Shown here in pieces: positions 13,300-54,758 of a DNA stretch of 64,000 bases. The notes below the pieces were generated by a model. That model ran no database searches and was not told the DNA's origin. It saw nothing but the letters and a program-made list of their open reading frames with translations. Made by a program: the position numbers and the translations under genes. Each line of letters begins with the position of its first letter. Position 1 is the first letter of the stretch. This DNA is from Motacilla alba alba. Taxonomy: Eukaryota > Chordata > Aves > Passeriformes > Motacillidae. Location of the stretch: positions 2,589,685-2,653,684 of the forward strand of contig NC_052019.1 of the NCBI RefSeq assembly GCF_015832195.1, written 5' to 3'.

Positions 13300-14890
13300 T
13301 GGGAGAATTTGGGGACCAGGGGGATTTGGGGATGGATCCACAGCTGGGAGAAAACCAGGGGGATTTTGGGATGGATCCACAGCTGGGAGAATTTGGGAAC
13401 CAGGGGGATTTGGGGATGGATCCACAGCTGGGAGAATTTGGGAACCAGGGGGATTTGAGGATGGATCCACAGCTGGGAGAGAACCAGGGGGCTTTTGGCA
13501 TGGATCCACAGCTGGGAGAGAAGCAGGGGGATTTTGGGGATGGATCCACAGCTGGAAAAACCAGGGGGCTTTTGGGATGGATCCACAGCTGGGAGAGAAG
13601 CAGGGGGATTTTGGGATGGATCCACAGCTGGGAGAACCAGGAGGATATTGGGGATGGAGCCACAGCTGGGAGAGAAGCAGGGGGATTTGGGGATGGATCC
13701 ACATCCTGGAGAACCAGGAGGATTTGGGGATGGATCCACAGCTGGGAGAACTAGGGGGATTTTGGGATGGATCCACAGCTGGGAGAATTTGGGAACCAGG
13801 GGGATTTGAGGATGGATCCACAGCTGGGAGAGAACCAGGGGGCTTTTGGCATGGATCCACAGCTGGGAGAGAAGCAGGGGGATTTTGGGATGGATCCACA
13901 GCTGGGAGAACCAGGAGAATTTTGGGATGGATCCACAGCTGGGAGAGAAGCAGGGGGATTTTGGGATGGATCCACAGCTGGGAGAACCAGGAGGATATTG
14001 GGGATGGAGCCACAGCTGGGAGAGAAGCAGGGGGATTTGGGGATGGATCCACATCCTGGAGAACCAGGAGGATTTGGGGATGGATCCACAGCTGGGAGAA
14101 TTTGGGAACCAGGGGGATTTGGGGATGGATCCACAGCTGGGAGAACCAGGGGGATTTTGGGATGGATCCACAGCTGGGAGAACCAGGGGGATTTTGGGAT
14201 GGATCCACAGCTGGGAGAATTTGGGAACCAGGGGGATTTGGGGATGGATCCACAGCTGGGAGAAGGGAGCAGAACCAAGTGGATTTTGGGATGGATCCAC
14301 AGCTGGGAGAGAACCAGGAGGATTTTGGGATGGATCCACAGCTGGGAGAGAACCAGGGGGATTTTGGGATGGATCCACAGCTGGGAGAGAACCAGGGGGA
14401 TTTTGGGATGGATCCACAGCTGGGAGAACCAGGGGGATTTGGGGATGGATCCACAGCTGGGAGAACTGGGGAGAACTAGGGGGATTTTGGGATGGATCCA
14501 CAGCTGGAAGAATTTGGGAACCAGGGGGATTTTGGGGATGGATCCACATCCTGGAAAACCAGAGGGATTTGGGAATGGATCCACAGCTGGGAGAAGGAAG
14601 CAGAACCAGGGGGATTTTGGGATCCACAGCTGGGAGAACTGGGGAGAACCAGGGGGATTTTGGGATGGATCCACAGCTGGGATAACCAGGGGGATTTTGG
14701 GATGGATCCACATCCTGGAGAACCGGGGATTTGGGAATGGAACCACAGCTGTGAGAAGGAAGCAGAACCAGGTGGATTTTGGGATGGATCCACAGCTGGA
14801 AGAATTTGGGAATCAGGGGGATTTGGGGATGGATCCACAGCTGGGAGAATTTGGGAACCAGGGTGAGTTTGGGGATGGATCCACAGGTGG
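13300..14890. repeat. Minisatellite, ~38-44 bp unit containing GGATGGATCCACAGCTGGGA
   Basis: About 40 tandem units. Each has the GGATGGATCCACAGCTGGGA core (a BamHI site and a PvuII-type CAGCTG). The units differ by short inserts: none (38 bp), a GA insert (40 bp) or an ATTTGGG insert (about 44 bp). The mixed lengths shift the frame and stops are absent, so very long open frames appear on both strands; they are not genes. A higher-order duplication is visible: the segment starting near 13452 (GATTTGAGG, then TTTTGGCATGG) recurs at 13803, 351 bases later. Confidence 0.95.
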
Positions 14891-17279: not shown

Positions 17280-17482
17280 CGCTGTCACGTGACTCGGCGC
17301 CGTCACGTGATCGCGTGTCACGTGGCCGTGGGGAAAGGGGGGCACGCGCCGCTGGCGCCACCCGCCGGCCGCGCGCGCGCGCCTGCCGGGAGCCGGAAGT
17401 GGCGTCACCGCCGCGCGACCGGAAGCGGCGGGAGGAGGCGAAGGGGGCAGGAGGAGGAGGCGGCGGCGCCGGAGCGGCCCCG
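17280..17482 (+). promoter_or_regulatory. CpG-island promoter and first noncoding exon of UBOX5/FASTKD5
   Basis: Three GTCACGTG boxes lie at 17284-17291, 17302-17309 and 17317-17324; the first is the full palindrome GTCACGTGAC, the CLEAR/USF-type E-box bound by USF and TFEB/TFE3/MITF factors. Two ETS-type CCGGAAG motifs follow near 17392 and 17419. There is no TATA box. A leader exon is inferred to end at 17482, before GTGAGT. The next in-strand coding acceptors are those of FASTKD5 (22091) and UBOX5 (26754), so one promoter probably serves both. Confidence 0.75.
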
Positions 17483-17650
17483 GTGAGTGCCGGCCCCTGT
17501 CCTCCCTTCCCTTCTCCTCCCTTCCCCTGCCCCGGTGAGTGCCGGCCCCTGTCCTCCCTTCCCTTCTCCTCCCTTCCCCGGTGAGTCCCGGCCCCTTCCC
17601 CTGCCCGTTCCCTGCCCCTTCTCATCCCCGGTGAGTCCCGGCCCCTTCCC
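17477..17650 (+). repeat. Tandem repeat carrying four copies of a splice-donor sequence
   Basis: CCCCGGTGAGT occurs at the leader-exon donor (17483) and three more times over the next ~150 bases (near 17531, 17577 and 17626), each embedded in similar CCTTCCCTTCTCC-rich DNA. Each copy is a full consensus 5' splice site. Confidence 0.85.
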
Positions 17651-17784
17651 CTTCTCATCCCCGTTCCCTTCCCATCCCCGTTCCCCGTCCTCTTCCCTCC
17701 TCCCCGTTCTCTGCCCCCCTGCCCGAGCCACCCCCTCAGCCGGCGGGGCCACCCGCGTTCTGCCCTGGGCTGCATCGCCCCTAT

Positions 17785-26762: not shown

Positions 26763-29700
26763 ATGGTAATAAACGTCTGTCTCCCACAGTTCAAGCCAAG
26801 AATTCACTGCAACAAGGTAAAATAGGGAGGAGGGGGTTTTGGGGAGTGGGAGGGATGGAGGGATTAGATGGAATTATCCGGGGGAGGAACTGGTTCACTG
26901 CTCCTCTGGGATAATCAGCATCACTGCTCTGATGTGGCACACGCTAAACACTGGAGGGGAAAGCCCTAATTTTGCAGGATCTCATAACCAGACAGCATGA
27001 TGTGCTTCCAGGTGTAAGTTCTTCGACTTGAGATCCCTTTTTCCCTGCAATATTCCAGCTTTCCCTCTGCCCATTGGAACATACAGCTCTTGGTAATGTG
27101 AAATTATCAATTAATGTGAAATTGTGAAATGGTAACTCGGTGAAGTTGCTTTCCAAGCGTTTCTGGTTTCACTCAGCACATCAGAATCTCTGTCAGAAAC
27201 TCAGTTTTCATTCAAATCTGGTTTTTAGCTGTATGTTTCCCCACCAACTCACCCCAAAATCCAGGACAGCCTTGGCTTTGTAAATACTGTGCTGCTGGAA
27301 TTTTTTGTGGAGAGACCCAGCCACGCCACAGAGTTTTAGTGTGATTGTCGTGATCAAGACCACATTAAACAGGTGGAATAAATAGATTTTCCTCATTTTT
27401 ATTTGTCCATTCAGCAAGAATTCTCAGGGCCTGGGGCTTCCAGGAAAGGGAATGGATTGAACCAGGCTGCCCAGGAGCAGTGCAGGGGTGGGATGGGATG
27501 TTCCAAACCAGACCCAGCCTGGATTGATGGGTCTCCCTCAGGGATGGGTGGGGTGGCTCCCAGAGGCTGATTGACATCCAGAGTTCCTCTGGGACCCTGT
27601 AACTGTGATTCCAAGTGCATTTCCACATGGATAAGTAGGCACAAAAAAAATTGAGAGACTCCCACCTGAAAAGGGAGACTGAAAGGAGACTCCCATCTCC
27701 CCCACGCTCATCCTCTGCTCCCAGCCACCCTCTCCTCCTGGACTTACCTCACTGACCCAGCCAAAACCACGAATTGCCCCTGATTTTCCACTCTTCCAGC
27801 AGTTCAGTCAGGTCTGCCCATGGTGACAGAGGGTGCAGGAAGAGGGGATGGAGGAGGATGGGAGCACTCTGCCTTACAGCAGGGTCTGAGCTGCACATAA
27901 ACCTCAGCCTTGGCTCCTGGTTGATGCCATCCTGAGAATCTCTGGAAGTGCTTGTGAAATTGGCCTTCCTTGTGTTTCCTTGCTCCATCCTGACCCCAGT
28001 TTTGGTCTGGCACACAGATCTCAGCCGATGGCTACGAGGTGGAGAACCTGATCTCCGAGGACCTGGCCAGGAGGAACCGTGGCTTCCGCAGCGAGTACTT
28101 CATCAAACCGCCGGTGCACGTCACCATCTCCTTCCCCTTCAACATCGAGATCTGCAGGATCAACGTGGACATCTCCTCCGGGGGCTACCAGACCTTCTCT
28201 GGCTTGGAAGTTTACACCTCTACCTCATGCAACAAAACCTCTTGGCAGAGCCCCGAGGGGCAGTGCTCGGGTCTGGCCGGGCAGCCCGTGTCAGACAAGG
28301 ACACCTTCACCCTGGTGGGCAAAGCTGTCTTAAAAAATCAGAGCAAAGTGACTTTTGGCCACAGAGGCTTCAAGCCGAGGCCTCCCTTCCATCAGATGGA
28401 AAATGTCTTCTCCTACCCCGGCTCCGTGTCCCAAGACCTCTGGAACAAAGGGCCGGCCTCGCTCAGCAACGTGTCCCACCTAAAAATCTGCATCACCCAC
28501 GTGGCCGGGGGGGGCCTGCCCAGCATCAAGAGGCTGGAGGTGTGGGGACAACCGGCCAAGTCCTGCCCACAGGAGGTGATCGAGGGCGTCTTCCAGGTGG
28601 CCTCCCAGTTCCTGGCCCAGGACGTCGGCGGCCTCAAGCCGGAGCTCTGGACGCCCATGGAGAGCGACTGCGTGCCCTTCGGTGCCAACGAGCAGCAGAC
28701 CCTGCACAAGCTGGTGGACGTTGTCCACGACATCCCTGAAGAATTCCTGGACCCCATCACTCTGGAGATCATGACTTTACCCATGCTCCTGCCCTCTGGG
28801 AAGGTGATTGACCAGAGCACCCTGGAGAAGTGCAACCGGAGCGAGGCGTCCTGGGGCCGCGTCCCCAGCGATCCCTTCACGGGCGTGGCCTTCAGCCAGC
28901 ACTCCCAGCCCCTACCTCACCCCACCCTCAAGGCCAGGATAGACCACTTCCTGCTGCAGCACAGCATCCCTGGCACCAACCTGCTGGGGAGGGCTCATGC
29001 CTCGGAGAGCCTGGTGCCCTCCTCCATCACCATGTCCTCTCTGAAAAGGAAAATGGACTCCATGGATCAGGGCTCCCTGCAGCCGCCCTATTTTTCTGCT
29101 ACAAACTTACTTGTCACTTCTACCTCAGAGAACAGTGCTAAAAAAATGAAAACTGACAGTGACTCCCACTTGATCCAGATGGACTGTTCCACAGGTATCG
29201 TGGCTCCCCAGGTCACCTCTGTCCCTTGAGTGTTGGGACAGCCCCAGGCTGGGCTTTCAAACCGGGAGAAATCCAGTGCAAGTTCCCATCACGCCTCTAG
29301 AAAGTTTCTAGGCTGTGCTTGGCTGGTGGAGCTGGGTCATTTCATCCACTTCCCATGTTCCTTGTTGTGTTTCACAGCCCTTGCTTGCTCAGGTCACCCT
29401 GTTCCCCTTTTAGTTTGGATTCCCTTTCTCTTCCTTCCATGTGGAGACAATATTTTCCTCACCGTCCTGATTTGTAGTTCCTTTATCCAGGGAGATTTAT
29501 TGTGTCCTGCAAAAACAGGAAAAGAAATGTCTGGTGCTGCAGTGGTGATGGCACAGGGAGTCCTGGCTCGTCATGAGGAGGGAGGTTGGAAGGAGAGCAG
29601 GGATGGGACACAGAGCAACCCACAGCAAGGGAATTGCAGGGAGGAGGGACAGCTCAGCCTGGGAGAGACTTGCACAGAATTTGCAGGTGGTTAGAGCAGA

Positions 29701-32700
29701 AAACCTGGTAGAGGCTAAATGAGACAAGAAATGTGACTTGTGTCCCTTCATCCATCCCTTTCTCAGTGATGCTGGGAGTGCAAAATGTCCTGCAGATCTG
29801 GGGACAAGCTCAGGTGGGACCTTGTTGTTGCCAACAACTCCCTGACAGGAGGGAGGAGCCGGGTGGGGGTCAGGCTCTGCTCCCAGGGAGCAGGGACAGG
29901 AGGGAACTGCAGTTCCCATCCCTGGAGGAATTGAAAAGCCATGAGAGTGTGGCACCTGGGGACAAAGGGTGTAAATCCAGGTGTGGGGGTATTTCGTGGT
30001 TGGCTCTCTGGGCAGCTCAGTCTCCTGGTGTGCTCTAACCCAGTGTGGTCTGTGACATGTCAAAAGGTGACCCAGAGCTGCTGGGACCTGTCACTGCCTT
30101 CACCCTTCTCTCAATCTGCCCAAAAAGATTTTGAGGACAAAGCTCAGGTGGCTGTTTGGTTTTTAATAAATTCTTCAGTTGGAAAGAATTGATGTCGGGT
30201 GGTAGCAGGAAGAGTAGGGAGAAGCCAGACTGCACGTTTCTGCTCTGGTCCCTCATCCTGGAGCTGATTCCCTCTTTTAGGAGGAATCTTTGGTTATTTT
30301 GGCTGTGGAGGTGTGTGACAGCTCCCACAGGATGTGCCCCAGCCCCACAGGAGCAGGAGCTGCCCTGTGGGTCCTGGAGCTCCCGGGGCAGCCGTGTCCA
30401 TACATAAATAAAAGCAGAGTGCTCAGCCCGTGGAGCTCATGCTTCACTGGATCATCAGCCTTGATTGGTGGAGGAAATGTGCAGCACCAGTTGCGAGCTC
30501 TTCCTCTGGGAGCTGGGTTTAACAGAATTAGTGATGCAGACAACATTCTCTTAATGCTTGGTCTTAATTAGCGCCGTCGGTGCTGCGCAGGGCAGCCCTG
30601 CGGGGAGGGTCCAGCCCTGGCCCTGTGGCTCAGAACTGGGACAGAGAGGGAAAAACAAGTCCCACAGATTTTATTAATGCTTTAAATGTTCTCTGTGAGC
30701 TGCACGGAGCAAGGCTGGGAGCACTGGGCTGGGAGCCAGCTGAGGGAGTGCCTGGGATTTCAGGGAAAAGCAGCTTCCTGGGTTATTTGGAGTTTGGCCC
30801 TTTTTCAGTCCTGCAGACTTCTACAGCTCCACGGAAGGAGGGTGCAGCCAGGTAGGGGTCAGGCTCTGTTCCCAGGGAATAAGAGGAAATGGCCTCAGGA
30901 GAGGTTTAGGGTGGTATTAGGGAAAATTCCTTCATGCAAAGGGTTCTCCAGCCCTGGCACAGGCTGCCCATCCTGAAGGGATTTAAAAGCCATGTGGGTA
31001 TGGCACTTGGGGGCATGATTTAGTGATGGCCTTGGCAGTGCTGGACTCCATGATCTTGGAAGACTTCTTCAACCTAAATGATTCTGTCCTGTGTAAGTTG
31101 GCACTGGGACACCACATGAGTGGTGGTGATCCCTGGGGCAGCCCACCTCTAGGACCTAGAGGACACGAGGCACTCAACCCCAAATCCCAGCCCCTTGGTG
31201 GGAAAAAGGCACCTCTCAACAAAACAAGTGCAGGGCTCCTAAAATCCTCCAAAGTTCAGAGCCAAGGCAGTGTTTGCATCACAGATTCTTTTTCCCAGCA
31301 TCTGCTTCTCCATCTTTTTCTCGTCTTTGCAGACCTGGTGTTTCCCTTTGCCAATCTGATCTCTGGGTTCCCTTTGCAGATTTGGTCTCCCAATTCCCTT
31401 TGCACACCTGGTCTCTGTTTCAGTTTGCAGATTTTGTCCTTGTTTCCCTTTGCAGACCTGGTCCTTGATGTTTCCCTTTGCACACCTGGTGTTTCCCTTT
31501 GCACACCTGGTGTTTCCCTCTGCACACCTGGTCTGTATTTCCTTTTGCAGACCTGATCCTTGATGTTTCCCTTTGCACACGTGGTCTCTGTTTCCCTTCG
31601 CAGACCTGCTGTTTGTGTTTCCCTTTGCAGATTTGCTCTGTTTCCCTTTGCAGACCTGGTCCTTGTTTCTTTTTGCAGATTTGCTCTCTGTATCCCTTTG
31701 CAGACCTGTTCTCTGTTTCCCTTTGCAGACCTGTTCTCTGTTTCCCTTTGCAGACCTGCTCTCTGTTTCCCTTTGCAGATTTGCTCTCTGTTTCCCTTTG
31801 CGCACCTGGTCTGTATTTCCCTTTGCAGACCTGATCCTTGATGTTTCCCTTTGCACACGTGGTCTCTGTTTCCCTTCGCAGATTTGCTCTCTGTTTCCCT
31901 TTGCAGAGCTGGTGTTTGTGTTTCCCTTTGCAGAGCTGCTCTCTGTTTCCCTTTGCAGACCTGTTCTGTGTTTCCCTTTGCAGACCTGTTCTCTGTTTCC
32001 CTTTGCAGATTTGCTCTCTGTTTCCCTTTGCAGAGCTGGTGTTTGTGTTTCCCTTTGCAGAGCTGGTCTCTTTTTCCCTTTGCACACCTGGTCTCTGTTT
32101 CAGTTTGCAGATTTTGTCCTTGTTTCCCTTTGCACACCTGGTCTGTATTTCCCTTTGCAGACCTGCTCTCTGTTTCCTTTTGCAGACCTGTTCTCTGTTT
32201 CCCTTTGCAGATTTGCTCTCTGTTTCCCTTTGCAGATTTGCTCTGTTTCCCTTTGCAGATTTGCTCTCTGTTTCCCTTTGCAGACCTGCTCTCTGTTTCC
32301 CTTTGCAGAGCTGGTGTCCCACGAGCAGAAGCTGTCGGAGAGCTTGGACACTGCCCTGACCTCTGCTCTCAGCTCCATGCCCTCCTTCACGGCCAAGCTG
32401 ATGAAGAGCCAGCAGCAGGCTCCGGGAGAGGGGGGCTGCAGCACTTCCTGGAGCCCGGGCACAGCCCTTGGTGAGCAACAGGCACCTCTGGAGCACCTTT
32501 GGGACCTGGGGCTGCCTTAACAGGGAGCGTTGTTCAGAGCCCAGGCTATTACATGTTCCACATAAAAATATTCCATGGTCTCCCAGCAAGCTTTAGTTCA
32601 CAATCCTTGCCTCTGTCTCAGCAGTTTTGCTGCTTTATTCTCCACTGAGGCAGGTCAGACCTTGCTGACCCCCAAGGTGTGGGATGTTGTCCATGCCCAG

Positions 32701-34448
32701 GGTCAGAGCAGGCTGTGGCAGCAGTGCTGTGATTCTCCCGTGTTCTTGGCTGGCTGTGCTGCCCCAGGGTGAGCTGGGATGGACACGGTGCTCAGCCTGC
32801 TCCAGCTCGGTTCAGACAGCTCTCAGAGCTCTGCACTTTGGGCTCAGAGGTTCAGTGTTGCCCGTGAGCTGTGTGCAGCAAGCTGGGGAGCTGCCACGTG
32901 GGTGGAGAACGAGTCTGGTGTGGGGATGCTGCAGGAGAGGTGTAAATCCAGCAAACACTGCAGCCCTCCAGTGCTTGAAAGGGCCTTGGAAAAAAGAGGG
33001 AGAGTCACATAGAGACTGTGCAAGGGGGAATGTTTGTAAACTAAAAGAGTAGGGTGAGATTGGATATTGGGAAGGAATTGTTCCCTGTGAGGGTGGTGAG
33101 CCCTGGCACAGGGTGCCCAGAGAAGCTGTGGCTGCCCCTGGGTCCCTGGAAGTGTCAAAGGCCAGGTTGGACAGGGCTGAGAGCAGCCTGGGCTAGTGGA
33201 AGTGTCCCTGCCTATGGCAGGAAGGTGGAATGGGATGGGGGCTTTATGATCCCTTCCAACCCAAACCATTCCCTGATTTGAAACACCGTGTGACATCCAG
33301 CCTTTGGCAGGAGCAGGTCACAGCAGCAGAGTCCCAGGCCAGCCAGCTGTGTGTGCCCAGAATCCCATCAGGATTGAGTGTCCATAATCCAGGCTGCCAC
33401 ACCCACCCAGCCGCTGCCCAGCCGCTCATCCAGCTGTGCATGCATTCCCAAAAGGATTCCTTTGGGCTGCAGGGAAGCGCTGAACCTTCAGATGTCCCTC
33501 CACATGTCCTGGCCTCTCTTCCCCTGGGTGAGGCTCTGCTTGCCCGTGGCTGAGAAGGGGCTTCAGAGGGACCCTGGGAAGGGCTGTGTCTGTCTGTCCG
33601 TCCACCTGCCTGTGCCTGTTTTTCCCTCTCTGCCCCTCCCCAAACAGCTTCTGCTGTTTCACAGTGCCATTCAGCTCTTCAGCTTTTCCCTGTCCCCTCT
33701 AAAACTGCAGCTGTTGGAGAGCTGAGCAGCCCTGGATGGGTGTGTGACAGGAATGCAAAGCGACCCCTCAGCTGTTCCACCTGGGAACGGCTGTGGAAGA
33801 GCGGGAGGGAGGGTGATTTAATCTCAGTAAAAGTGAAAAGCCCTTTTTTACAGTCATCTGCCCTCAATTAAAAGCCTGATGGCGCGAGTGCTTGATGTGA
33901 TCCATCCCTTTCTGAGCACAGCCTGCCCTGGAAGCTGGACCATTCCCTTTCCTCGTGGTGATGACGGCAAAGTGGCACAGTCCTGAGTCACAGCTGTGCC
34001 CTGCAGGACCTGTGGCACCGGGGGGGGTGGCCCAGCCTGACTTCTCACACTCCCTGCCCGACCCACTTCTGTCCCTTTGTTTCACACTCTGAAGCTGAGG
34101 AGGGATCAGACATTGGAAGGGGCTGCCCGGGGAGGTGCTGGAATCACCAGCAAAGCCCGGACCACCAGTTGGTTCACTCAGTAACCTCTGACGTTTCTTC
34201 CAGCCTGCTGATTGTGTGATTCTGCATTCGCAGAGCACGGCAGGAGCGGCCAGACCCAAGGATGTGCTTCCTGTGGCAAATCCTTCTCCTGCTACTTCAA
34301 GGCAGAGCCCGTGTACCAGCTCCCCTGCGGGCACCTGCTGTGCCGGCCCTGCCTGGCCGAGCGCCAGAAGGCTCCGGCTTCCCCCGTCCCCTGCGGGAGC
34401 TGCAAGAGGGCGGCGGCCACGCAGGACATCAGGAGGGTTCACTTCTGA
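26763..34448 (+). CDS. UBOX5: UBOX5 (U-box domain-containing E3 ubiquitin ligase 5; RNF37)
   Basis: Four coding exons: 26763-26816 (18 codons), 28018-29194, 32309-32470 and 34234-34448; GT/AG borders and phases agree, giving 535 residues (human 541). The tiny first exon encodes MVINVCLPQFKPRIHCNK, almost identical to human. Exon 2 holds the conserved N-terminal region (SADGYEVENLISEDL) and the U-box at about 258-334 (EEFLDPITLEIM, LPSGKVIDQSTLEKCNRSEA, PSDPFTGVAF). Exon 4 carries a C-terminal RING-like cysteine/histidine array at 475-521 (CASC, LPCGHLLCRPC, PCGSC). Family knowledge: a nuclear E3 ligase that works with UBE2L3-type E2 enzymes and interacts with VCP. A premature stop 35 bases past the exon 2 donor would give a shorter protein if intron 2 were retained. 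FASTKD5 lies in its 5' intron. Confidence 0.97.
29840..29975 (+). mobile_element. CR1 LINE fragment in UBOX5 intron 2
   Basis: CR1 wording GGTGGGGGTCAGGCTCTGCT, CAGTTCCCATCCCTGGAGGA and GTGTGGCACCTGGGGACA, matching the copy at 30838. Confidence 0.7.
30838..31090 (+). mobile_element. CR1 LINE 3'-end fragment in UBOX5 intron 2
   Basis: Contains GGGTTCTCCAGCCCTGGCAC, CATGTGGGTATGGCACTTGG, GATGGCCTTGGCAGTGCTGG and a near-terminal CAACCTAAATGATTCTGTC, the 3' end of a CR1 subfamily distinct from the 18 kb copy. Confidence 0.85.
31325..32308 (+). repeat. Minisatellite of 3' splice-acceptor units abutting UBOX5 exon 3
   Basis: About 39 tandem units, mostly 25 bases (27 in some), with the shared core TTTCCCTTTGCAG followed by ACCTG, ATTTG or AGCTGGTG. 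The core is a polypyrimidine tract plus CAG, and the last copy (AG at 32307-32308) is the acceptor of the exon at 32309. Several units continue AGAGCTGGTGT as the real exon start does, so the array appears to have grown from the exon boundary itself. About ten units read CACACC instead of CAGACC and have lost the AG. Confidence 0.95.
32936..33285 (+). mobile_element. CR1 LINE 3'-end fragment in UBOX5 intron 3
   Basis: Contains GGAAGGAATTGTTCCCTGTG, GGCACAGGGTGCCCAGAGAA, TCCCTTCCAACCCAAACC near its end. Sense orientation relative to UBOX5. Confidence 0.9.
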
Positions 34449-34982
34449 GCCCCGAGGGAGCTGCTGCTGTCCCCGCGTCCACACGGAGCCGCCCGGGAGC
34501 CGCAGACAGGAGAGGACTCGGTCTTTGTGCTTACAGAGTAGCGGGGGGTGGGGGGGTTAGAGCCCGAGGATGACAAAAGCCATAGCTTCTTTATCAAGGA
34601 ATATGTATTTCTATCCAGGACTGGTCTCCAGCACTGCCCCGGGGCTCAGAGGTTTAGCACAGGTGCCTTTGGGACCAGCTCAGCTTCTCCCCCTCTGCCA
34701 GTTCACGCCACGTTTGACCAGCAGCCAGCCGGCTGTGGAGCAGGTAACGTCCTTGTGAGTGACAGCACACACGCAAAGCCCACCCTGTGACTTCCTCCCC
34801 TTCCCCACCTCGCCCTCCCCTCCCTGCCGGGAGCTCTCTCATCGTGGCTGAGGTGGGAGGAGCTGGCAGTGATCTCGCCCTGCTCATCCAGACTCTTGTA
34901 GAAAAGCCATCCCATCCCACCCTCCCGGTTGATGTCGTGTGAGCAGCCCAGCTCCTGGCTGGCTGATAGACATTTAAGCCTT

Positions 34983-34988
34983 AATAAA
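34983..34988 (+). terminator. UBOX5 polyadenylation signal (AATAAA)
   Basis: AATAAA lies 535 bases after the UBOX5 stop, followed by a T-rich element (TTCTTTCTCTCTCTCTGGCT). Confidence 0.8.
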
Positions 34989-36306
34989 ATGTTTAAAGTC
35001 AGGTTCTTTCTCTCTCTCTGGCTCCTAATTAGTCTCATCCTGAGGCTTAATGGTGTCATGGAGTGAATCTCTTGGCAGAGGAGGAAATAAACTGGAAAAA
35101 GCCAAACCAACATGGAGGAGCTGCAGGCCAGAGGGGTTCAGAGGGGTTCTGGCAGCAGCCTCGTGCATCACAGGGATGAGATACCCATGGGCGCCTCAGA
35201 GAGATGCTCAGAAAAAAGCCAGAAAAAAAAAATTACTTTGATACCTTCTGTCCTGGATATGCCAGGGTAAGGTGACATCAAAGGGTTTGTCACCTCCACA
35301 ACCCCCTGCTGGTGCCACTTCATGGATGTTCTGGGCCATCACGAGCCTCCAGCTGACTCAGCTCACCTTGGGCACGGCTTTATTTGCTCTCCAAAGACAC
35401 CTGAGCAAAGTTGTGGTGTTCTGGCAGGGGAAGGAGCTGCTTGTGCCCTGGAGCACAGCTTTGTGCTGGCCCCACACCGATCCTGACCCTGCCTGCGTCA
35501 GCAGGAGTTTACAGCCCATCTCCATTCCCAGCAAAAAAAGAAAATCACACTTCTTAAAATAATAAACACTTAGAAAATAGGCACAGAACTCCTAAAAAGC
35601 CCACGGTTCAGAGGCAGTAAGTGTGCTCCATTGCAGCGGTGGTGTCGTGCTTGCAGTGAGCCATCCCGGGGTGATTCAGCTCTCACACCTCCCCCAGGGA
35701 AGGGGGGAGCATGGGCGGCTGCCTCTGGATCCCAGAGCCACCAACCAAAGCCAGCAAAGCTTGGATGCTTCCAGAGTCACCGGTTCTGACGAGCTCCTCC
35801 AGTGCCCAAAAGTTCCTTGTGGTGTCCTGAGGTGGGCGGTGATCCAGGTGGGAGCCGCCCAAATTTCCTCCAGGTTCCCTTTGTTCTGCAGGGATTGGAA
35901 GGGAAGGGGTGGTGCTGGGACATCAGGTCCTCCTCCCTGCTCAGAGCGGGGCTCATCTCCACCTCACTGCAGGTTCTCAGAGCCTTCATCCCCCAATTTC
36001 TCCTCCTTAACCCTCTGGGACCCTTGGCAGCACACTTCACCTGCTGTGTCCCCCCTTGCAGGGGATCCAGGGGGGATCTCTTGCAGGGGATCCAGGCATG
36101 AGTGTCTCTCTGCACCCACATTCTGGAGCTCAGGGAAGGATCACCTGCCCCAGCTGGGTGTGAATCCCCCTGATCCCAGGGCACTGGAACCCCTGTGGGC
36201 AGCAGGGACCCTCTCCGCACCCCAAGGTGGGTGGCACAGAGCCAGCAATTTCCTCTGCCTGGACCCACAGCAATCCCTCTTCTCCAGCAATCCCTGTTTG
36301 TGACAG
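34989..36306. other. UBOX5-vasotocin intergenic, proximal part
   Basis: No gene or recognisable repeat family seen. Moderately GC-rich unique-looking sequence; open frames on both strands lack known motifs. Confidence 0.5.
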
Positions 36307-42063: not shown

Positions 42064-42072
42064 CATAAATAG
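42064..42072 (+). promoter_or_regulatory. Vasotocin TATA-like box (CATAAATAG)
   Basis: CATAAATAG lies 60-68 bases upstream of the vasotocin ATG, placing the start of transcription near 42095 and giving a short 5'UTR. A CT-rich run (42020-42050) precedes it. Confidence 0.7.
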
Positions 42073-42131
42073 CAGCTCTCTCAGCACGGGGCCAGACGCA
42101 GCTGGAGCAGCTTCCCCGGGCACCCTGCACC

Positions 42132-44112
42132 ATGGCAGAGCCTTCGCTGCCCCTCTCCTTCCTCTGCCTCCTCGCCCTGTCCTCCGCCTGCTACATCCAG
42201 AACTGCCCGCGGGGCGGGAAGCGGGCGCTGGCCGACACAGCTCTGCGACAGGTACGGCTTGGGGACACGGTGGCTCCGGGGGTGCTCCCCGTCACCTCCG
42301 GGCACCGCTGGCTCCGTGGCATTGTGCCACCCACCCGGGAGCCGTGGGGTTTTGGGGTGGCGGGGGGACACGCGATGGGGCAGTGGCACAGGAGTGACAG
42401 CTCCAAGGCGCTGTTGGCACCTGGAGAAGAGGCTCCGGCTTGGCCACGGCAGAGCGTCCTGCTGGGCTGGGGGGCAGCGGGACAGGACAGAGCACGGAGA
42501 GGGGACAGGGAGGTCGTGGGGACACCCCAAAGCGGGGACGCCCCAAAGCGGCGACACCCCAAAGCAGGGACATAAGGTCACCATTGCTGGTGGCAGCGTG
42601 GCACCTCCAGGAGCTGGAAGGGGAGCTGCTGGTGGCAGCGTGGCACCTCCAGGAGCTGGAAGGGGAGCTGCTGGTGGCAGCGTGGCACCGCCAGGAGCTG
42701 GAAGGGGAGCTGCTGGTGGCAGTGTGGCACCTCCAGGAGCTGGAAGGGGAGCTGCTGGTGGCAGCGTGGCACCTCCAGGAGCTGGAAGGGGAGCTGCTGG
42801 TGGCAGCGTGGCACCTCCAGGAGCTGGAAGGGGAGCTGCTGGTGGCAGCGTGGCACCTCCAGGAGCTGGTGGGGAGCTGCTGGTGGCAGCGTGGCACCTC
42901 CAGGAGCTGGTGGGGAGCTGCTGGTGGCAGCGGGGCACCTCCAGGAGCTGGTGGGGAGCTGCTGGTGGCAGTGTGACACCTCCAGGAGCTGGAAGGGGAG
43001 CTGGTGGGGAGCTCCAGGGGGGGTTTCTAACACAAGGGGGTGCAGAAGGGTGGTTTTGGGGTGCGGGCACTGAGGCAGCTCCTTCCCGCAGTGCATGCCC
43101 TGCGGTCCCGGCAACAGAGGGAACTGCTTCGGGCCCGGCATCTGCTGCGGCTCGGAGCTCGGCTGCTACCTGGGCACGGCGGAGACGCGGCGCTGCGCCC
43201 AGGAGGATTTGCTGCCCTCGCCCTGCCAGCCCGCCGGGCAGCCCTGCGGAGCCGGGGGCCGCTGCGCCGCGCCCGGCATCTGCTGCAGCGCCGGTAAGCA
43301 GCGGGGCACGGGCACCGAGGGTGGGTGGGCAGCACGGAGGGATGGCGAGGGGGGAGAGAGGTCCGCAGGTAAAGCTTAGCCGGTGGTGGGGTTTAGTTTC
43401 AGGGAGGGGGAAGTGAGGTGGGGAGTGGAAGCGGTGTCGGCGGAGTTCGGAGATCGTTTGGGGGTGGTTGGGTTAAGCTGGCTGTAAGGAAGGAATTGTC
43501 CCCTGGGAGGGTGGGGAGGGCCTGGCACAGGGTGCCCAGAGAAGCTGTGGCTGCCCCTGGCTCCCTGGAAGTGTCCAAGGCCAGGTTGGACAGCGCTGGG
43601 AGCCACCTGGGCTAGTGGAAGATGTCCCTACCCATGACAGAGGGTGGGACAAGGTGTTCTTTGAAGGTCCCTTCCAACCCAAACCATTCTGACTCTAAAG
43701 GATTGGGCTCGCAGCTCCTTCCTGACCCACCACGAGCTTTTCCTGGCCAGCACGGCCTCTTTGATGTACCAGAAATTCCAGCCCCGCTCCCCGCTTAGCG
43801 GGAGAGACAAAACAGGAGCACGAACTGTGCTGATCCCCCAGGCTGCCACCAACCCCTTCCCCAGCCGAAAACAACCCCCTGATGATCCCAAATAACCCGT
43901 GCCACGGCCGCGTTTTGCTCCCTGCGGCAGAGACGTGCGCCATGGACACCGGCTGCCTGGACGAGGGCAGCGAGGGCGCTCAGGAGGCGGCGGAGGAGAA
44001 GAACCTGACGGTGCTGGATGGCTCGGCCGGAGATCTGCTCCTCAAGCTCATGCACTTGGCAAACCGGCAGCAGCAGCAGCAGCAGCAGCAGGGCAAGCAC
44101 CCCCTGCTCTGA
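42132..44112 (+). CDS. AVP: Vasotocin-neurophysin-copeptin precursor (AVP orthologue)
   Basis: Three exons: 42132-42251, 43092-43293 and 43931-44112, giving 167 residues. Exon 1 encodes a 19-residue signal peptide, the nonapeptide CYIQNCPRG (Arg8, vasotocin), then GKR for amidation and cleavage, and the first residues of neurophysin. Exon 2 and the start of exon 3 supply neurophysin, with 14 cysteines in the family spacing ([26 protein letters not shown]). Exon 3 adds a copeptin-like tail with a glycosylation site (NLT) and a leucine-rich core ([11 protein letters not shown]). There is no arginine between neurophysin and the tail, so the mammalian copeptin cut is not expected. The tail holds an eight-glutamine run encoded by pure CAG (44068-44091). 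Product: secreted antidiuretic and social-behaviour hormone made in hypothalamic magnocellular neurons. Mesotocin follows in the same direction 3.3 kb on. Confidence 0.98.
42584..43015. repeat. VNTR-type minisatellite in vasotocin intron 1, 42-bp unit
   Basis: About ten copies of a 42-base unit (CTGCTGGTGGCAGCGTGGCA, CCTCCAGGAGCTGGAAGGGG, AG), the last four shortened to 39 bases by GTGGGGAG in place of GAAGGGGAG. Units are near-identical, implying recent expansion. It fills about half of the 840-base intron and ends about 75 bases before exon 2. Confidence 0.97.
43470..43700 (+). mobile_element. CR1 LINE 3'-end fragment in vasotocin intron 2
   Basis: Contains GGAAGGAATTGTCCCCTGGG, GGCACAGGGTGCCCAGAGAA, TCCAAGGCCAGGTTGGACAG, CCCTTCCAACCCAAACCATT; sense orientation. 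Confidence 0.92.
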
Positions 44113-44180
44113 GCCAGGGCGTGGGGAGTCCCCCCATCCCTGACAGACCCCCCCAGCTCGGCTCTGTACATACCAGACCC

Positions 44181-44186
44181 AATAAA
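44181..44186 (+). terminator. Vasotocin polyadenylation signal (AATAAA)
   Basis: AATAAA lies 69 bases after the vasotocin stop, followed by GTGCACTGTGCTGG. Confidence 0.9.
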
Positions 44187-45639
44187 AGCCCTCGTGCACT
44201 GTGCTGGCCTCGTCCCGGGCACTTGGGGGTGGCTCGTGGGGGCTCCAGGGGACCTGGCTGGGGCTCAGGATGGGGGTGCTGGAGGGTCTTCTGTCCCCAA
44301 GTCCCCACAGAGTGCAGGCGGTTCGGCTGGGCTGGGGGCAGGATTTGGATCTGTCCTTTTAGCTCCCGGGGGAAGGAGCTCAGGCAGAGCTGGAATTTGG
44401 GATCTGGCCATGGAGTCCCACCCAGCAGCACCCCAGCTCCAGGACTCTGGGAACAGCCGGGATGTGCCACTGTCACATTACCTCGTGGCCAAGCCCCTCT
44501 CCGGGGCAGGTTTGGGGCCTCGCTGCCTTCAGCAATCAGCGCAGCATCTACTAAAAATGATAAAAAGTAAGGAAAAGCTTTTTCCTTGGGAAAAGCACCC
44601 CAAATCCCTCAAGAGCAGAGAGGTTTGGGCTCCCAGCTCCAAAGACTCCTTCCAGGGCTGGTCTCATTTTTCCCCATCCCCTCTGGACACTGACAGGGAG
44701 GATCAGTCCCCATTATCCCACAGTCACCCCCAGAATTTGGGGAATCCCAACCCTCTCCCGGCTCTCTTACCCTGCGGGGTCCTTGCTCCGAGGTCTCTCC
44801 GGGCTGGGACTGGCCACGGCACAGGGGACAGCTCGTCCTTTTATACTGTCCCTGAGGGAGGTGGCACCTCCGGGGAGGTGGAGCTCCCTGACACCGGCGG
44901 GATCCATCCTGCCCGCGGCAGCTCCCTGCAGCCCCCAGGGGATGCAGGATTGATGCAGGATTGATGCAGGACTGGTCCAGGACTGATGCAGGATTGATGC
45001 AGCACTGGTCCAGGATTGATGCAGGACTGGTCCAGGATTGATGCAGGATTGATACAGGACCTGCTTCCCACAGCCAGCATCTGATCCCAGCCCTGGGGAA
45101 AGGGGGGCGACACCAAATCACCCCAAAATCATTGGGAAAGGGGTGACACCAGCATGGATGAGGGACTCCAAGCTGGGATGAGGGAATTGGGCTTTCAGCC
45201 CAGCTCTAGCACTCGGGTTTTCCAAGATGCAGGGTGTGAACCCCCAACATTCCTGCAGCACCGGGAATGTGTGGCTGAGCAGGGAATGCTCCGTCTGATG
45301 AACACCTCAAAATCAGGCAAAAATCGAGTCCCCAAAAAGCACCAGGGGCTGATAACTGGGTTTTCCCCCACTTGTCTACCCGAGACACGTCCTGCAGGGG
45401 TCTGGGCACCCCTGGAGGAGCCACAGGGGCTCTGGGATGACAATTCCCTCCCTCCACCCTGTGCTGCAGCCCGAGCTGAGCTGCTGGGACAGCACACAGC
45501 GGGTGCTGAGCCCCATTTCCAAGCCATTACCATGGATCCCAGCGCCCGCCTTGTCCCCAGGGACTGGGACTGACCCGGGGTGGGTGACAGGGACCCGGCT
45601 GCCCTCGTGCCAGCCTCGCTAAGTGGTGGATTTTGAAGC
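44187..45639. other. Vasotocin-mesotocin intergenic, left part, with a short GATGCAGGA minisatellite
   Basis: No gene supported. At 44941-45060 a short array of 15-base units alternates GATGCAGGATT and GGTCCAGGACT about eight times. Confidence 0.7.
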
Positions 45640-45790
45640 AAGCCAGAGGACAGGAAAAGGTCACGGCCGTCCGGCTCTGGGCTGCCTAATTCCCAATTAA
45701 GCCAGAGCAGGGTAATGATCTCAGCGGACGTCAAGGTTTGTCCTCGGCAAGGAAATTTATTCAAGCTGGGAAGCTCCTAATTGGGATAAG
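45640..45790. promoter_or_regulatory. Candidate regulatory block between vasotocin and mesotocin
   Basis: Non-repetitive stretch with a CRE-like half site GGACGTCAA at 45726 and palindromic AT words (CCTAATTCCCAATTAAG, CTCCTAATTGGG). Candidate only; based on motif density amid repeats. Confidence 0.3.
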
Positions 45791-46365
45791 GAAGGCAAGG
45801 GGCCGGGGTGAGCAGGACCTTGGGTGGTTGCGTCAGCCTCCGGCCTCATCCTCAGTGCTGCTTCTCAGGGAGGAAGAGGAGGGGCGGCTCTGTCTGCTGC
45901 TGATGTGGCTCAGGACATCACACTGAATCCCTATGAGCAGCTCCAAGGAGCAGCAGTGGGGAAATTTGGAGTTTCAGGCCTTTGCCCGGGAGGTTTGGTA
46001 TTGTCAGGCAGCTTTGGAGCTGTTGGATGAAGGTGGGTGGGGATGGGCTGGGTGTCACTGTTGTCCCAGAGAGGGATGAGCCCAGTGCTGAGCATCCCCC
46101 AAAGGCCAGGCACGGGTGGGTGGACAGGGCCAACAAGGACACTCCCATGGCTGATCCCAGACGATTTGGGGCTGCTTCCTCCCACCCAAAGGGATTGGAA
46201 GCCGGGGGAAGCACACACTCTTCTCACCTCCAGCTCCTGGGTGGACACATCCCACCTCCAGCCTTCCTTCATCCCTACCCTCTCCATGCCAGAGGGGGTC
46301 CCAACAGGACACACCAAAGCTCAGCAGCCCAAAGCGGCTGCCAGAGAAGGGCCCCAAGCCCCAGG

Positions 46366-47195
46366 CTCCATCCACAACCTCCACACATCCCTCCAGCTCC
46401 ATCCACACCTCCACACATCCATCCAGCTCCATCCACACCTCCACGTGTCCCTCCAGCTCCATCCACAACCTCCACACATCCCTCCAGCTCCATCCACAAC
46501 CTCCACACCTTCATACAGCTCCATCCACAACCTCCACACGTTCCTCCAGCTCCATCCACAACCTCCACGCGTCCCTCCAGCTCCATCCACAACCTCCACG
46601 TATTCCTCCAGCTCCATCCACAACCTCCACGCGTTCATCCAGCTCCATCCACAACCTCCACATGTCCATCCAGCTCCATCCACAACCTCCACGCGTTCCT
46701 CCAGCTCCATCCACAACCTCCACGCGTTCCTCCAGCTCCATCCACAACCTCCACGCGTTCATCCAGCTCCATCCACAACCTCCACATGTCCATCCAGCTC
46801 CATCCACAACCTCCACGCGTTCCTCCAGCTCCATCCACAACCTCCACATGTCCATCCAGCTCCATCCACAACCTCCACGCGTTCCTCCAGCTCCATCCAC
46901 AACCTCCACATGTTGCTCCAGCTCCATCCACAACCTCCACGCGTTCCTCCAGCTCCATCCACAACCTCCACATGTCCATCCAGCTCCATCCACAACCTCC
47001 ACGCGTTCCTCCAGCTCCATCCACAACCTCCACATGTTGCTCCAGCTCCATCCACAACCTCCACGCATTCCTCCAGCTCCATCCGCAACCTCCACGCGTT
47101 CCTCCAGCTCCATCCGCAATCTCTACACCTTCATCCAGCTCCATCCACAACCTCCACACGTTCCTCCAGCTCCATCCACAACCTCCACACGTCCC
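46366..47195. repeat. 31-bp minisatellite immediately upstream of the mesotocin promoter
   Basis: About 27 units of exactly 31 bases: CTCCATCCACAACCTCCACG followed by CGTTCCTCCAG, with variants CATGTCCATCCAG and CATGTTGCTCCAG. Many units contain ACGCGT, adding about two CpGs each. The array ends about 170 bases before the TATA box. Because 31 is not a multiple of three and stops are absent, long frames appear on both strands; they are not genes. Confidence 0.97.
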
Positions 47196-47235
47196 TGCTG
47201 CTGCCAGACTCATCACAGAGGAGAAAACCAGCACC

Positions 47236-47250
47236 TTGTCCTTGACCTCA
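47236..47250 (+). promoter_or_regulatory. Candidate composite nuclear-receptor element of the mesotocin promoter
   Basis: TTGTCCTTGACCTCA resembles the composite hormone response element at about -160 of mammalian oxytocin genes (GGTGACCTTGACC as I recall it). It reads as an SF-1/ERR-type site on the reverse strand (TCAAGGACA). Its distance to the inferred start near 47393 is about 150 bases. Confidence 0.45.
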
Positions 47251-47362
47251 CGTCCTCGACCTCCTGCTATTAGCCGAGCCCTTGCTGTGGGCAGCAATGC
47301 CTTGTGGTTTTTAAGAAGCACGGGTGACGCCGGTGCCAGAATCCCTAAGCAGGAGCCAGGAC

Positions 47363-47370
47363 TATAAATA
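47363..47370 (+). promoter_or_regulatory. Mesotocin TATA box (TATAAATA)
   Basis: A perfect TATAAATA 59 bases upstream of the ATG; transcription should start near 47393. Confidence 0.9.
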
Positions 47371-47421
47371 CAGGGCCAGCTGTTGGGATGAGCAGCCAAA
47401 AATCCCCCCTGTCCTGCCACG

Positions 47422-48756
47422 ATGTCCTGCAAGGCTCTGGCCCTCTGCCTCCTGGGGCTCCTGACTCTCTCCTCCGCTTGCTACATCCAGAACTGCCCCA
47501 TCGGGGGCAAACGCGCTGTGCTGGACATGGATATCAGGAAGGTAGGTCCTGGAAGCTCAGGGCACTCCCAGCTCCATCCTTCCCTTCTCCCAACCTTCTT
47601 ACCCCCCGTTCCCGAGCAGTGCCTGCCCTGCGGTCCCCGGAACAAGGGCCACTGCTTCGGGCCCAACATCTGCTGCGGGGAGGAGCTGGGCTGCTACATC
47701 GGCACCTCGGAGACGCTGCGCTGCCAGGAGGAAAACTTCCTGCCCACGCCCTGCGAGTCGGGCCGCAAACCGTGCGGCTCCGGAGGGAGCTGCGCCGCTC
47801 CCGGCATCTGCTGCAGCAGCGGTGAGGCGGCACGGCATCCCGGGATTCCCGTGCTGAGCCCTCGCACGGCCGGCAGGGGATCCAGGGTTCTTGGAACAGT
47901 GGGAGAGGGGAGGATGCCCAAGGGATTGTCTTTGTCCCGTCCGTGTGTCCATCCATCGCCCCGACAGCCAGAGCGGGCTCCATGATCTATCCAGAGCCCA
48001 GGGAAGGGATGAGACCGGGAGGGTTTGGGCTGGAGGGACGCAGACAGCAAATTCTGGGGGCTGAGCAAGTGCAGGAGTCACGTCCCCTGCTGCTCTCATC
48101 AGTTTTTCCTCAAAATCCCACCCTCCTCCCTAAATTGAACTGCCAGGGATCCTGCTGTGAACCTGCGGGCTGTTTTGGGGATGTCTGGGAGCTGTTTTGG
48201 AAGTCCCTGCAGGCTGTTTTCGGGGTCCCTGGGGGCTGTTTTGGGGAGTCCTTGAGGGCTGTTTTTAGAGGTCCCTGGGGGCTGTTTTGGGGATCTCTGG
48301 GGGCTGGTTCAGAGGGTTCCTGGGGGCTGTTTTGGGGAGTCCTTGAGGGCTGTTTGTGGGGGTTCCTGGGGGCTGTTTCAGAGACCGCTAGGAGCTGTTT
48401 TGGAAGTCCCTGGGGGCTGTTTTGGGGATCTCTGCAAGCTGTTTTTGGGGGTTCCCAGGGGCTGTTTTGGGGATCTCTGCGAGCTGTTTTTGGGGGGTTC
48501 CCAGGGGCTGTTTCAAGGATCTCTGGGAGCTGTTTTGGGGAGTCCTTGAGGGCTGTTTTGGGGGGTTTCTGGGAACTGTTTCAGGAGCTCGTTCATCAGG
48601 TCCCTGGGGGCTGTTTCAGGGATCTCTGGGGCCCGTTTTGGGGGTTCCCTGGGGTCTGGTGAGTGCTGCCTGGTTTCACACCACACTCCCCCCTCTCTCC
48701 CCTCAGAGGGCTGTGGCACTGACTCATCCTGTGACCAGGAGCTGCTGTTTGTGTAG
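47422..48756 (+). CDS. OXT: Mesotocin-neurophysin precursor (oxytocin orthologue)
   Basis: Three exons: 47422-47541, 47620-47821 and 48707-48756, total 123 residues, with the same intron phases as vasotocin. A 19-residue signal peptide ends at SSA, followed by CYIQNCPIG (Ile8, mesotocin), GKR, and a neurophysin with 14 cysteines. The last exon is very short ([16 protein letters not shown]) with no copeptin, which separates it from vasotocin. Family knowledge: magnocellular neurohypophysial hormone acting on oxytocin-type receptors in reproduction and affiliation. Exon 2 is the same length (202 nt) as in vasotocin. Intron 1 is only 78 bases, while intron 2 holds a minisatellite. Confidence 0.98.
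48165..48660. repeat. Minisatellite in mesotocin intron 2, GGCTGTTTTGGGG units
   Basis: Around 20 imperfect units of 22-28 bases built on GGGGGCTGTTTTGGGGA and TCCCTGG or TCTCTGG. The array ends about 45 bases before the exon 3 acceptor, so units lie close to the branch-point region. Confidence 0.92.
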
Positions 48757-48850
48757 CCACCCAGGAGAGAACGCGCAGGATCCCGCATCCATCGCTGTGC
48801 CAGCCCCAGCCCGGGCTGTGACTCAGACTGAAGCGATGAGCTTAATTAGA

Positions 48851-48856
48851 AATAAA
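48851..48856 (+). terminator. Mesotocin polyadenylation signal (AATAAA)
   Basis: AATAAA lies 95 bases after the stop; a GT-rich tract (TCTGCGGGTTTTGTGTGCTT) follows. Confidence 0.9.
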
Positions 48857-49711
48857 ACTTGGACAGAAAAACAGCCCAGACACAAGTCTGCGGGTTTTGT
48901 GTGCTTGCCTGGTTGAGGTGCAGGCTCGGGAGAAGAAGACGCTTTTAGGGAAAAGTGGAGGTAAAAAGTGAGGGTTTCAGGTCAATGAACTGAGGGAGGG
49001 AGGGAGGGAGAGGGAGCTGCAGACCACGGCTGAACCACAGCAAACTCCAGGCTCAACACTGGGCAGCCCAAAACCAGAAGTTTTAGGACAAAGCTGAGAG
49101 CCTGCAAGACCCCAACAACCCAGAACACCCAAAGTCATTACAATTTGATCTATACCTTCAGTGGTGATGAATAAATTAAGCCTGAAGGGGGGAATAAGGA
49201 GACACCAGAAATCCTGGATCATTCAGACACATTTTCTTATTCAGCCACACCAAGGGATGTGCAAAGGGGGGTTTGAAGTGTGAAATCAGGATTACAATTA
49301 ATTCCTTCCCCCAACAAGATAAAAAGGGAAGGTCAGTGTTTCGTACAAATTCATTCAGCCCTCCTTTGCCTTTGGAAGCATCCAGAGGAGTTGACAGCGA
49401 GGAGCCGAGCCAGGCTCTTCCTCAGGACTGCTCCTGCTCCTCCCCACATGCTGTGTGTGAAGGCAGCAGGGATCCAAACACGTGGGAGGTGGGATCACAG
49501 GCACAGCAACAGGGCTGAGCCAGGCTGCCGGAGCCTCCAAGTTTCCCCTCACCCCCTTTCCCACAGGCGTTAACCCTTCGGAGGCAGCACAGCCAGACCC
49601 GGGGCCCTTCTCCACCACTTCTGTGGCCAATTTCTACATTCCAAGGAAGGATCTGTGTTTTCCAGGGGGGCTCTGGACGCAGGACAGGCCGGGAGCCCCG
49701 TGGCAGGGCTG
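48857..49711. other. Convergent 3' space between mesotocin and MRPS26
   Basis: No gene. It must hold the MRPS26 3' end, but no canonical AATAAA was seen on the minus strand close to the MRPS26 stop. Confidence 0.5.
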
Positions 49712-52700: not shown

Positions 52701-53509
52701 CATAACCAGCCCCTTTCCCAACCCCACAACCACCCCCAGCCCCATAACCGGTCCCGATCTTCCCCTGCCCCATAGCCTGTCCCTTACCCAAACCTACAAC
52801 CACCCCCACCCCTGCCCAGCCCCATAACCACCCACAGCCAGTCTCTAACCCAAACCCACAACCCACAACCACCCTCAGCCCCATAACCAGCCCCGACCTT
52901 CCCCTGCCCCACAGCCAGTCCCTCAAACAGCCCCACAACCACCCCCAGCCCTCTCCTGCCCCATAACCAGTCCCTTTCCCAACCCCACAACCACCCTCAG
53001 CCTTGCCCTGCCCCACAGCCAGTCTCTAACCCAAACCTACAACCCACAACCACCCTCAGCCCCATAACCAGCCCCGACCTTCCCCTGCCCCACAGCCAGT
53101 CCCTCAAACAGCCCCACAGCCAGCCCCAGAGCAGCCCATGTCCGCCCTTCCCCTGCCCCACAGCCGCCCCTGCCTCCAGCCCCCCAGAGGCGCCCATCTC
53201 CACGGGCACAGCCCAACCCTGACGTGCCCCAGAGCCCCATGCCCAGCCCCGGTACCGGAGGGCGCTGAGCACCAGCCGGTGCTGCCGGTACCGCTCCAGC
53301 ACCACCAGCAGCTCCTCGGGGTCCACGGGCGGCGGCAGCTTCACGCGGCCCGCCTTGGACTTGGCGGGGGGGTCGTGCCGGGTCTTGCGGCCCCGCGCCG
53401 GCACGGCCCGCGGGCCCCAGGCGGGGCAGAGCCCCGGGAAGGGGCCGGGGCCCAGCGCGGCCGGGAGCGGGACGGGCCCCGGGCGGCAGCGCCTCAGCGC
53501 CCGCAGCAT
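49712..53509 (-). CDS. MRPS26: MRPS26 (mitochondrial small ribosomal subunit protein mS26)
   Basis: Four exons on the minus strand: 53509-53256, 51371-51237, 50217-50094 and 49843-49712, phases 2, 1-2 and 0 closing correctly to 214 residues (human 205). The N-terminus is a presequence ([11 protein letters not shown]...). Conserved blocks: [15 protein letters not shown] in exon 1, [12 protein letters not shown] in exon 2, a long charged helix [20 protein letters not shown] in exon 3, and the C-terminal [13 protein letters not shown] plus NYNFAI in exon 4. Exon 4 has no ATG and is identified only by homology and splice sites. Role: structural protein of the 28S mitoribosomal subunit. It converges on mesotocin and lies just downstream of GNRH2 on the same strand, as in human. 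Intron 1 is swollen to 1.9 kb by two tandem arrays. Confidence 0.96.
50374..51115 (-). mobile_element. CR1 LINE 3'-region fragment in MRPS26 intron 2
   Basis: A long (about 740 bp) CR1 piece in reverse orientation, ending in the 3' signature CCCAGAATCACAGAATCCAT. It includes CTGGACACACTCCAGCATCT and CCACACCATTCCTGATCCAG. It lies in sense with MRPS26. Confidence 0.9.
51478..51905. repeat. ~31-bp minisatellite in MRPS26 intron 1, near exon 2
   Basis: About 13 units of CCTGCCCCACAGCGCTCCCA followed by GTCCCACCAC, then GTCCCATGATCCCCACTCTT variants. Confidence 0.92.
52235..53130. repeat. C-rich minisatellite in MRPS26 intron 1, CCCCATAACCAGTCCC units
   Basis: Imperfect units of 50-60 bases combining CCCCATAACCAGTCCCTTTC, CCAACCCCACAACCACCCCC and AGCCCTCCCCTGCCCC; a higher-order block near 53030-53110 repeats one near 52850-52930. 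No G-rich stops, so open frames on both strands are artefacts. Confidence 0.92.
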
Positions 53510-53590
53510 GGCGGCGCCGGGAGTGACGGCACGGCGCGGGGAGTGACGTCACAGCCCGCGCGCGCGGCGCCGCGGGAAGGGAGGGGAGCG
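53510..53590 (-). promoter_or_regulatory. MRPS26 CpG-rich promoter
   Basis: A short TATA-less CpG-dense stretch (GGGAGTGACGTCACAGCCCG, GCGCGCGCGG) lies just upstream of the MRPS26 ATG. TGACGTCA at 53543-53550 is a perfect CRE/ATF palindrome. Confidence 0.65.
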
Positions 53591-53629
53591 GGGTGTGATG
53601 GGAAATGGAGTTCGGGAGTCGTGAGGGAC

Positions 53630-54480: not shown

Positions 54481-54706
54481 CAGCCGCCCCCACGGGACAC
54501 GAATTCCCCACCCAAGGATCCCAAGGGAGGCGACACCTCCCACCCACGGGACACGGCATCCCTCTGGGGACACAGCCCCCGCCCCAAGCCACCCGGGACC
54601 CCGAGGGACACCAGTGTCCCCATGGCACACATGCCACCCCCCCCAGCATCCCGCCCCCACGCGAGCCCCTCCATCACCATCGCTGCGCACAAATCCCCCC
54701 AGCCCC

Positions 54707-54712
54707 TTTATT
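54707..54712 (-). terminator. GNRH2 polyadenylation signal (AATAAA, minus strand)
   Basis: TTTATT on the plus strand, 47 bases beyond the GNRH2 stop. It supports the inferred last exon. Confidence 0.75.
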
Positions 54713-54758
54713 CCCACGGGAGGGTCCCGGCTCGCTCCTGGGGGGTCGCGGGCTCCGG

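Follow-up and report, generated by a model that had tools for sequence, protein, structure and literature searches.

The window, meaning the whole stretch of 64,000 nucleotides of Motacilla alba alba DNA that was analysed, lies 2.59 Mb from the contig start and carries UBOX5/RNF37, as identified by protein homology. The best protein matches to the gene product came from Pycnonotus jocosus (96%), a penguin (93%), and Bombycilla garrulus (92%). Four coding exons were located on the forward strand: exon A, with its coding part (MVINVCLPQFKPRIHCNK) at 26763–26816; exon B (28018–29194), which carries the U-box and ends at the junction CCACAG/GTATC; exon C (32309–32470), which is 162 nt long, has phase 1-1, and is followed by the donor TTG/GTGAGC; and the last coding exon, D (34234–34448), which carries the RING domain. 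A six-frame search of the bird's own genome gave four matches, corresponding to exons A, B, C, and D at one genomic place. The exon referred to as UBOX5 exon 3 in the original prediction is the third coding exon, 32309–32470, and the residues that it encodes are conserved in UBOX5/RNF37 of other vertebrates.

Since exon C has phase 1-1, exon B can join exon D in frame, making exon C a skippable cassette. Among 123 homologous proteins, 104 matched both a RING pattern and a pattern for the start of exon C, 5 matched the RING pattern without the exon C pattern, and in 14 the RING pattern was unmatched. As judged by eye, the five RING-only proteins include a gecko isoform without exon C (P0042); in P0013, another sequence replaces exon C; the acceptor of P0120 seemingly lies within exon C; and P0080 and P0100 show mere variation in the exon C start pattern. 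Human isoform 2 presumably lacks the same 54 residues. A search with the exon C region (24 matches among 56 candidates) yielded no further bird proteins. No retrocopy was found as a record of spliced RNA (14 candidates scored, with four matches that were the window's own four exons), and no RNA family reached its gathering score in 30500–35000.

Acceptor-like units upstream of coding exon C

Forty tandem units, whose core ends run from 31332 to 32308, make up an array upstream of exon C (31318–32308, forward strand) in which each unit comprises about 15 nt of intron end and about 10 nt of exon start. Its last unit is the genuine 3′ splice site (TTTCCCTTTGCAG; 32296–32308), as established by the homology of the exon that follows, and the upstream units are in register with it, confirming a predicted tandem array whose final copy is the real acceptor. 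The prediction had put the array at about 39 units of mostly 25 bases, which was close to the 40 units counted and to the spacings between them: 25 nt in 26 of 39 cases, 21, 28, and 27 nt in three each, and 26 and 23 nt in two each. The first (5′) two units (31318–31353) are 21 nt apart. Tandem Repeats Finder reported periods of 25 (31394–32315), 50 (31339–32315), and 75 (31339–32309). Thirty of the 40 units end in AG, namely the genuine acceptor and 29 decoys, and the AG has been lost in 10 of the 39 upstream units (eight GCAC, one GCGC, and one GCCA), as many as had been anticipated.

With up to one mismatch allowed, TTTCCCTTTGCAG occurred 32 times in the window, always inside the array and on the forward strand, against an expectation of 0.26. 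In the bird's own 1.07-Gb genome, an exact pair of motifs 6–16 nt apart was found at no fewer than 13 places, each within this array, and a search with 32100–32470 returned at least seven matches: the query's own position and six more, all inside the array. A plasmid collection, which is unsuitable for a bird and carries no weight here, contained no similar DNA.

We compared the array with a control set of 78 arrays that do not overlap and measure 150 bp or more, comprising 19 in the window and 59 in 20 stretches of 10 kb on the same contig. Under the single, self-chosen site definition on which this control rests, the UBOX5 array ranked first of the 78, with 27 acceptor-like sites and a density of 27.6 per kb. 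At least 10 such sites per kb on one strand were present in 7 of the 78, the UBOX5 array included, so acceptor-like minisatellites are not unique to it; its special trait is its register with a real border. Arrays accounted for 16.9% of the window and 15.2% of the 200 kb sampled from the same contig. Acceptor-like sites were also seen in the minisatellites at 51559–51893 (seven, forward strand), 52494–53129 (five, forward strand), and 13317–14890 (18, reverse strand). By eye, the first two lie on the strand opposite to an MRPS26-like gene, and large minisatellites are interspersed among the neighbouring genes in 42069–57148, which, judged by eye from their open reading frames, we take to be vasotocin, mesotocin, MRPS26, and GnRH-II.

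A second border-like array (17478–17680, forward strand) holds four tandem donors, CCCCG/GTGAGT, at 17478, 17530, 17576, and 17626, with a period of about 50 nt. It lies at the edge of a GC-rich region that is probably exon 1 of FASTKD5/UBOX5. Of the 78 arrays, it alone had at least three donor-like sites on one strand; when one mismatch was tolerated, four or more sites of the donor motif in the window were reached in 8 of 100 shuffles.

Origin and growth of the array

The start of exon C in penguins (ATCTGGTCTCTCACGAACAAAAACTGTCGGAGAG) was decoded from king penguin isoform X2 (P0017), which reads it in a shifted frame, together with P0002 of another penguin, which reads it in the normal frame; the decoding relies on one predicted isoform (P0017) and has two solutions, which differ in the next base. 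In the 39 upstream units, the 12 bases past the AG position agreed with this decoded start at a mean of 8.69 of 12 positions, compared with 3.01 for 20,000 random 12-mers of the window and 2.4–5.0 for the 14 remaining even-numbered registers between −14 and +14 (38 units). Agreement with the window's own exon start was lower (6.85 of 12), and two upstream units match the first nine bases of the present exon exactly. Since the unit tails match an exon start, the polypyrimidine-like stretch CTCTCTG is at least partly exon-like. The agreement in register upholds the proposed growth of the array by duplication of the intron–exon border, and an origin from that border is, judging from these comparisons, very probable.

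The tails also differ from the present exon in an informative way. Exon position 2 is C or T, giving Asp, in 35 of the 39 upstream units and G, giving Glu, in four. Among 11 other bird proteins (representatives of 90% clusters), the first residue of exon C is Asp in 10 and Glu in one, Bombycilla, and the window's own exon C likewise begins with Glu. The tail of unit 1, ACCTGGTGT, codes for Asp-Leu-Val, which the majority of the other bird proteins compared also have. This pattern suggests that an older exon start is preserved in the array and that the present start was also copied in later rounds of duplication; exchange may also have run in the other direction. Separately, the predicted isoform P0017 continues directly from upstream sequence into exon C in another frame, which hints that upstream acceptors of exon C are used, or predicted, in a non-passerine bird too.

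Identity to the genuine acceptor increased toward the exon (Spearman 0.62, n = 39), and four duplicated block pairs were found, with identities of 69/70, 78/80, 69/70, and 61/62. The block at 31394–31463 recurs at 32074–32143 (69/70; the two copies differ solely by G/C in the AG of 31455), and that at 31526–31605 recurs at 31804–31883 (78/80). Units at 31423/31430 and 32103/32110, which are copies of one block, read TTTCAGTTTGCAG and have two AGs 7 nt apart. Within the units, the G of the AG was the most variable of the 15 intronic positions, varying in 10 of the 39 units, whereas T-7, G-4, and C-3 varied in none; since the units are not independent, neither the gradient nor these column counts carry a clean significance. 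Selection had been offered as one possible reason for the lost AGs; with the G being the most variable position, nothing points to the AGs being maintained.

Decoy acceptors and the expected splicing outcome

Over 20 intronic nt, six of the 29 decoys show no difference from the genuine site, and 12 match it at 19 or more of these positions. Candidate branch points were sought with the heptamer nnyTrAy published for cattle and human (PMC8531310) and the AG-exclusion-zone rule (PMC1431707), covering the zone plus 15 nt. In this range, the genuine acceptor of exon C, whose AG exclusion zone is 25 nt, has no TNA or CNA adenine, and the acceptors of exons A, B, and D have candidate branch points in the zone scanned. 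TNA was missing from 32% of random 31-nt stretches of the window (CNA not counted), and branch points in vertebrates follow their consensus loosely; the lack of a consensus one at exon C is therefore suggestive only. Full nnyTrAy motifs in 31200–32308 lie at 31359, 31468, 31556/31563, and 31834/31841 on the forward strand. For the first two, the next AGs at a distance of 12 nt or more are 31379 and 31550, respectively, both out of frame.

Translation of the predicted products showed that 10 of the 29 decoys would keep the full-length frame, adding 41 to 235 residues. The nearest of these is the decoy at 32173–32185 (+41 aa, in a 285-nt exon). For 14 decoys, translation was predicted to end prematurely, 50 nt or more ahead of the last junction, and for five it would end at the last junction, with the RING missing; thus, 19 of the 29 break the frame.

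These features lead us to lean toward a tolerated minisatellite of the "mirage" type, in which the genuine site is mainly used and skipping of exon C is raised. In this reconstruction, slippage or unequal exchange in the lineage of this bird would have made tandem copies of one intron–exon border, and further duplication of single units and of blocks would have enlarged the array, mostly on the exon-proximal side. The last AG would be the spliceosome's main choice, because exon definition from the donor at 32471 presumably favours the 162-nt exon. Since no consensus branch point was found near the genuine site and 29 decoys compete with it, the array should raise in-frame skipping of exon C, and the decoy products would mostly be destroyed or lack the RING. 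The array would then persist because its leaks are tolerated, not because isoforms are produced.

A splicing-neutral border minisatellite, with the same origin but with exon definition strong enough for 32308 alone to be used and for inclusion to stay unchanged, is a possible, clearly less probable reading. It would fit the drifting AG position, the array peptide's lack of a match among the 7998 candidates scored (see below), and the abundance of arrays in the window and along the contig, which indicates that they are common and tolerated here; moreover, the border-spanning arrays of amphioxus seemingly leave splicing undisturbed, as far as RT-PCR goes (PMC3087553). Against neutrality stand the six decoys that equal the real site across 20 nt, the missing consensus branch point at that site, and the correlation of a 25-bp border VNTR in human ABCA7 with exon skipping (PMC5954066).

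Use of a decoy with its own branch point as the major acceptor, reached by first-AG scanning, appears improbable. The two decoys concerned are 31603, which is in frame (+235 aa), and 31881, which shifts the frame with loss of the RING. Each follows full nnyTrAy motifs (31556/31563 and 31834/31841, giving the spans 31556–31603 and 31834–31881) by 40–47 nt with an AG-less unit in between, and in distant-branch-point exons the first AG after the branch point is the one taken (PMC1431707). Such use would, however, produce exons of 867 nt (31603) or 589 nt (31881), and no protein of this kind occurred among the 7998 scored candidates. Internal exons of these sizes are long for vertebrates. In addition, both decoys sit in copies of one block (78/80), so the lost AG in front of them does not represent two independent events.

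Still less probable is a maintained generator of isoforms with Phe/Leu/Cys-rich inserts between the U-box and the RING, as the original prediction had considered. Its insertion point was right, given that in the orthologue P0001 the U-box spans residues 257–334 and the RING 475–523 (the latter under the Pfam cut-off); the predicted structure of P0001 (17 sequences; mean pLDDT 37) is informative around the RING only. The in-phase frame is indeed open, from 31564 and not from 31573, and 10 decoys could use it, but the inserts would not be multiples of about 25 residues. This openness follows from unit composition and says little about isoforms: three common unit forms are stop-free in all six frames, and the array contains two stops in each forward frame and 0, 1, and 1 in the reverse frames. 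The 19 frame-breaking decoys and the unconserved AG also argue against isoform production. A search with a full UBOX5 protein that included the read-through array, in which scoring was confined to the array region, found no protein at E ≤ 0.1 among the 7998 candidates with the most shared words (about 424–1347 aa, from a clustered and capped search, and hence weak evidence), and the array peptide had no Pfam match.

Trans-acting titration of U2AF or PTB had been raised as a further role; CTCTCT, which we take to be a PTB motif, occurs 10 times in the array, and a sponge acting from one pre-mRNA would be implausible on grounds of stoichiometry. An assembly artefact or a collapsed repeat is scarcely credible, even though the array is known from a single assembly, in view of units that differ in ordered, non-identical ways, several block duplications, intact flanks and exons, and one genomic place.

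Relation to known border arrays and meaning

The tolerated border minisatellite that we favour is closest in kind to the mirages of amphioxus, arrays spanning intron–exon borders in Adh3, BflGb6, and BflGb9, whose splicing is suggested by RT-PCR to be regular (PMC3087553). Both are tandem, border-spanning units that retain the genuine border and have AG or GT in many, but not all, copies; in the UBOX5 array, intron end and exon start recur in register and the AG is present in 29 of the 39 upstream units. They differ in scale, BflGb6 having three to six units of 150–160 bp and this bird 40 units of about 25 nt. For the amphioxus mirages, haplotype length differences and RT-PCR are reported, whereas the UBOX5 array is known from the sequence of one assembly.

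The closest functional parallel is the VNTR in intron 18 of human ABCA7, whose 25-bp unit starts with the exon 18 donor; the published work describes retention of one unit and more in-frame skipping of exon 19 with increasing VNTR length (PMC5954066). Both arrays have 25-bp units at a splice site beside a skippable in-frame exon, but that of ABCA7 consists of donors, with the skipped exon downstream of the array, and that of UBOX5 of acceptors. No donor-like site was found in the UBOX5 exon C array on either strand. For human IFI6 (G1P3), Turri et al. reportedly described in 1995 a minisatellite carrying multiple splice donors; like the UBOX5 array, it would supply several splice-site copies, donors in its case. 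Two other classes of splice site do not resemble the array: exons with distant branch points have a long AG exclusion zone, unlike exon C, and a recursive-splicing ratchet site is an acceptor directly followed by GT (AG/GT), whereas A stands at +1 in all 39 upstream units. The DDX3Y/MSY2 minisatellite, also considered as a parallel, is an array of start sites and not of splice sites (PMC3039753). Among the literature matches listed, which consisted of titles and the beginnings of abstracts and mostly lay outside subscription journals, no description of the UBOX5 array was found.

Border-copy arrays are thus already known from a few other animals, and UBOX5 is a further case, in a bird. In a natural vertebrate gene, it lines up 30 similar 3′ splice sites, of which one is genuine and six more match it fully over 20 intronic bases, which makes the choice among sites testable at equal polypyrimidine tract and AG: the first AG after the branch point, proximity to the downstream donor, or exon sequence may decide. 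It is also a minisatellite born from a splice border that seemingly preserves how the exon once began, and systematic searches for such arrays in minisatellite-rich parts of bird chromosomes seem worthwhile. Drawing on the ease with which copy number changes in such arrays, one may further imagine a length-tunable dial in which copy number sets how frequently exon C is included, is skipped, or is spoiled through the use of decoys. We regard this as rather unlikely; if true, individuals or species would differ in how much of a ubiquitin ligase they make and in which form, and the same gene would have a second dial in the tandem donors near its probable exon 1.
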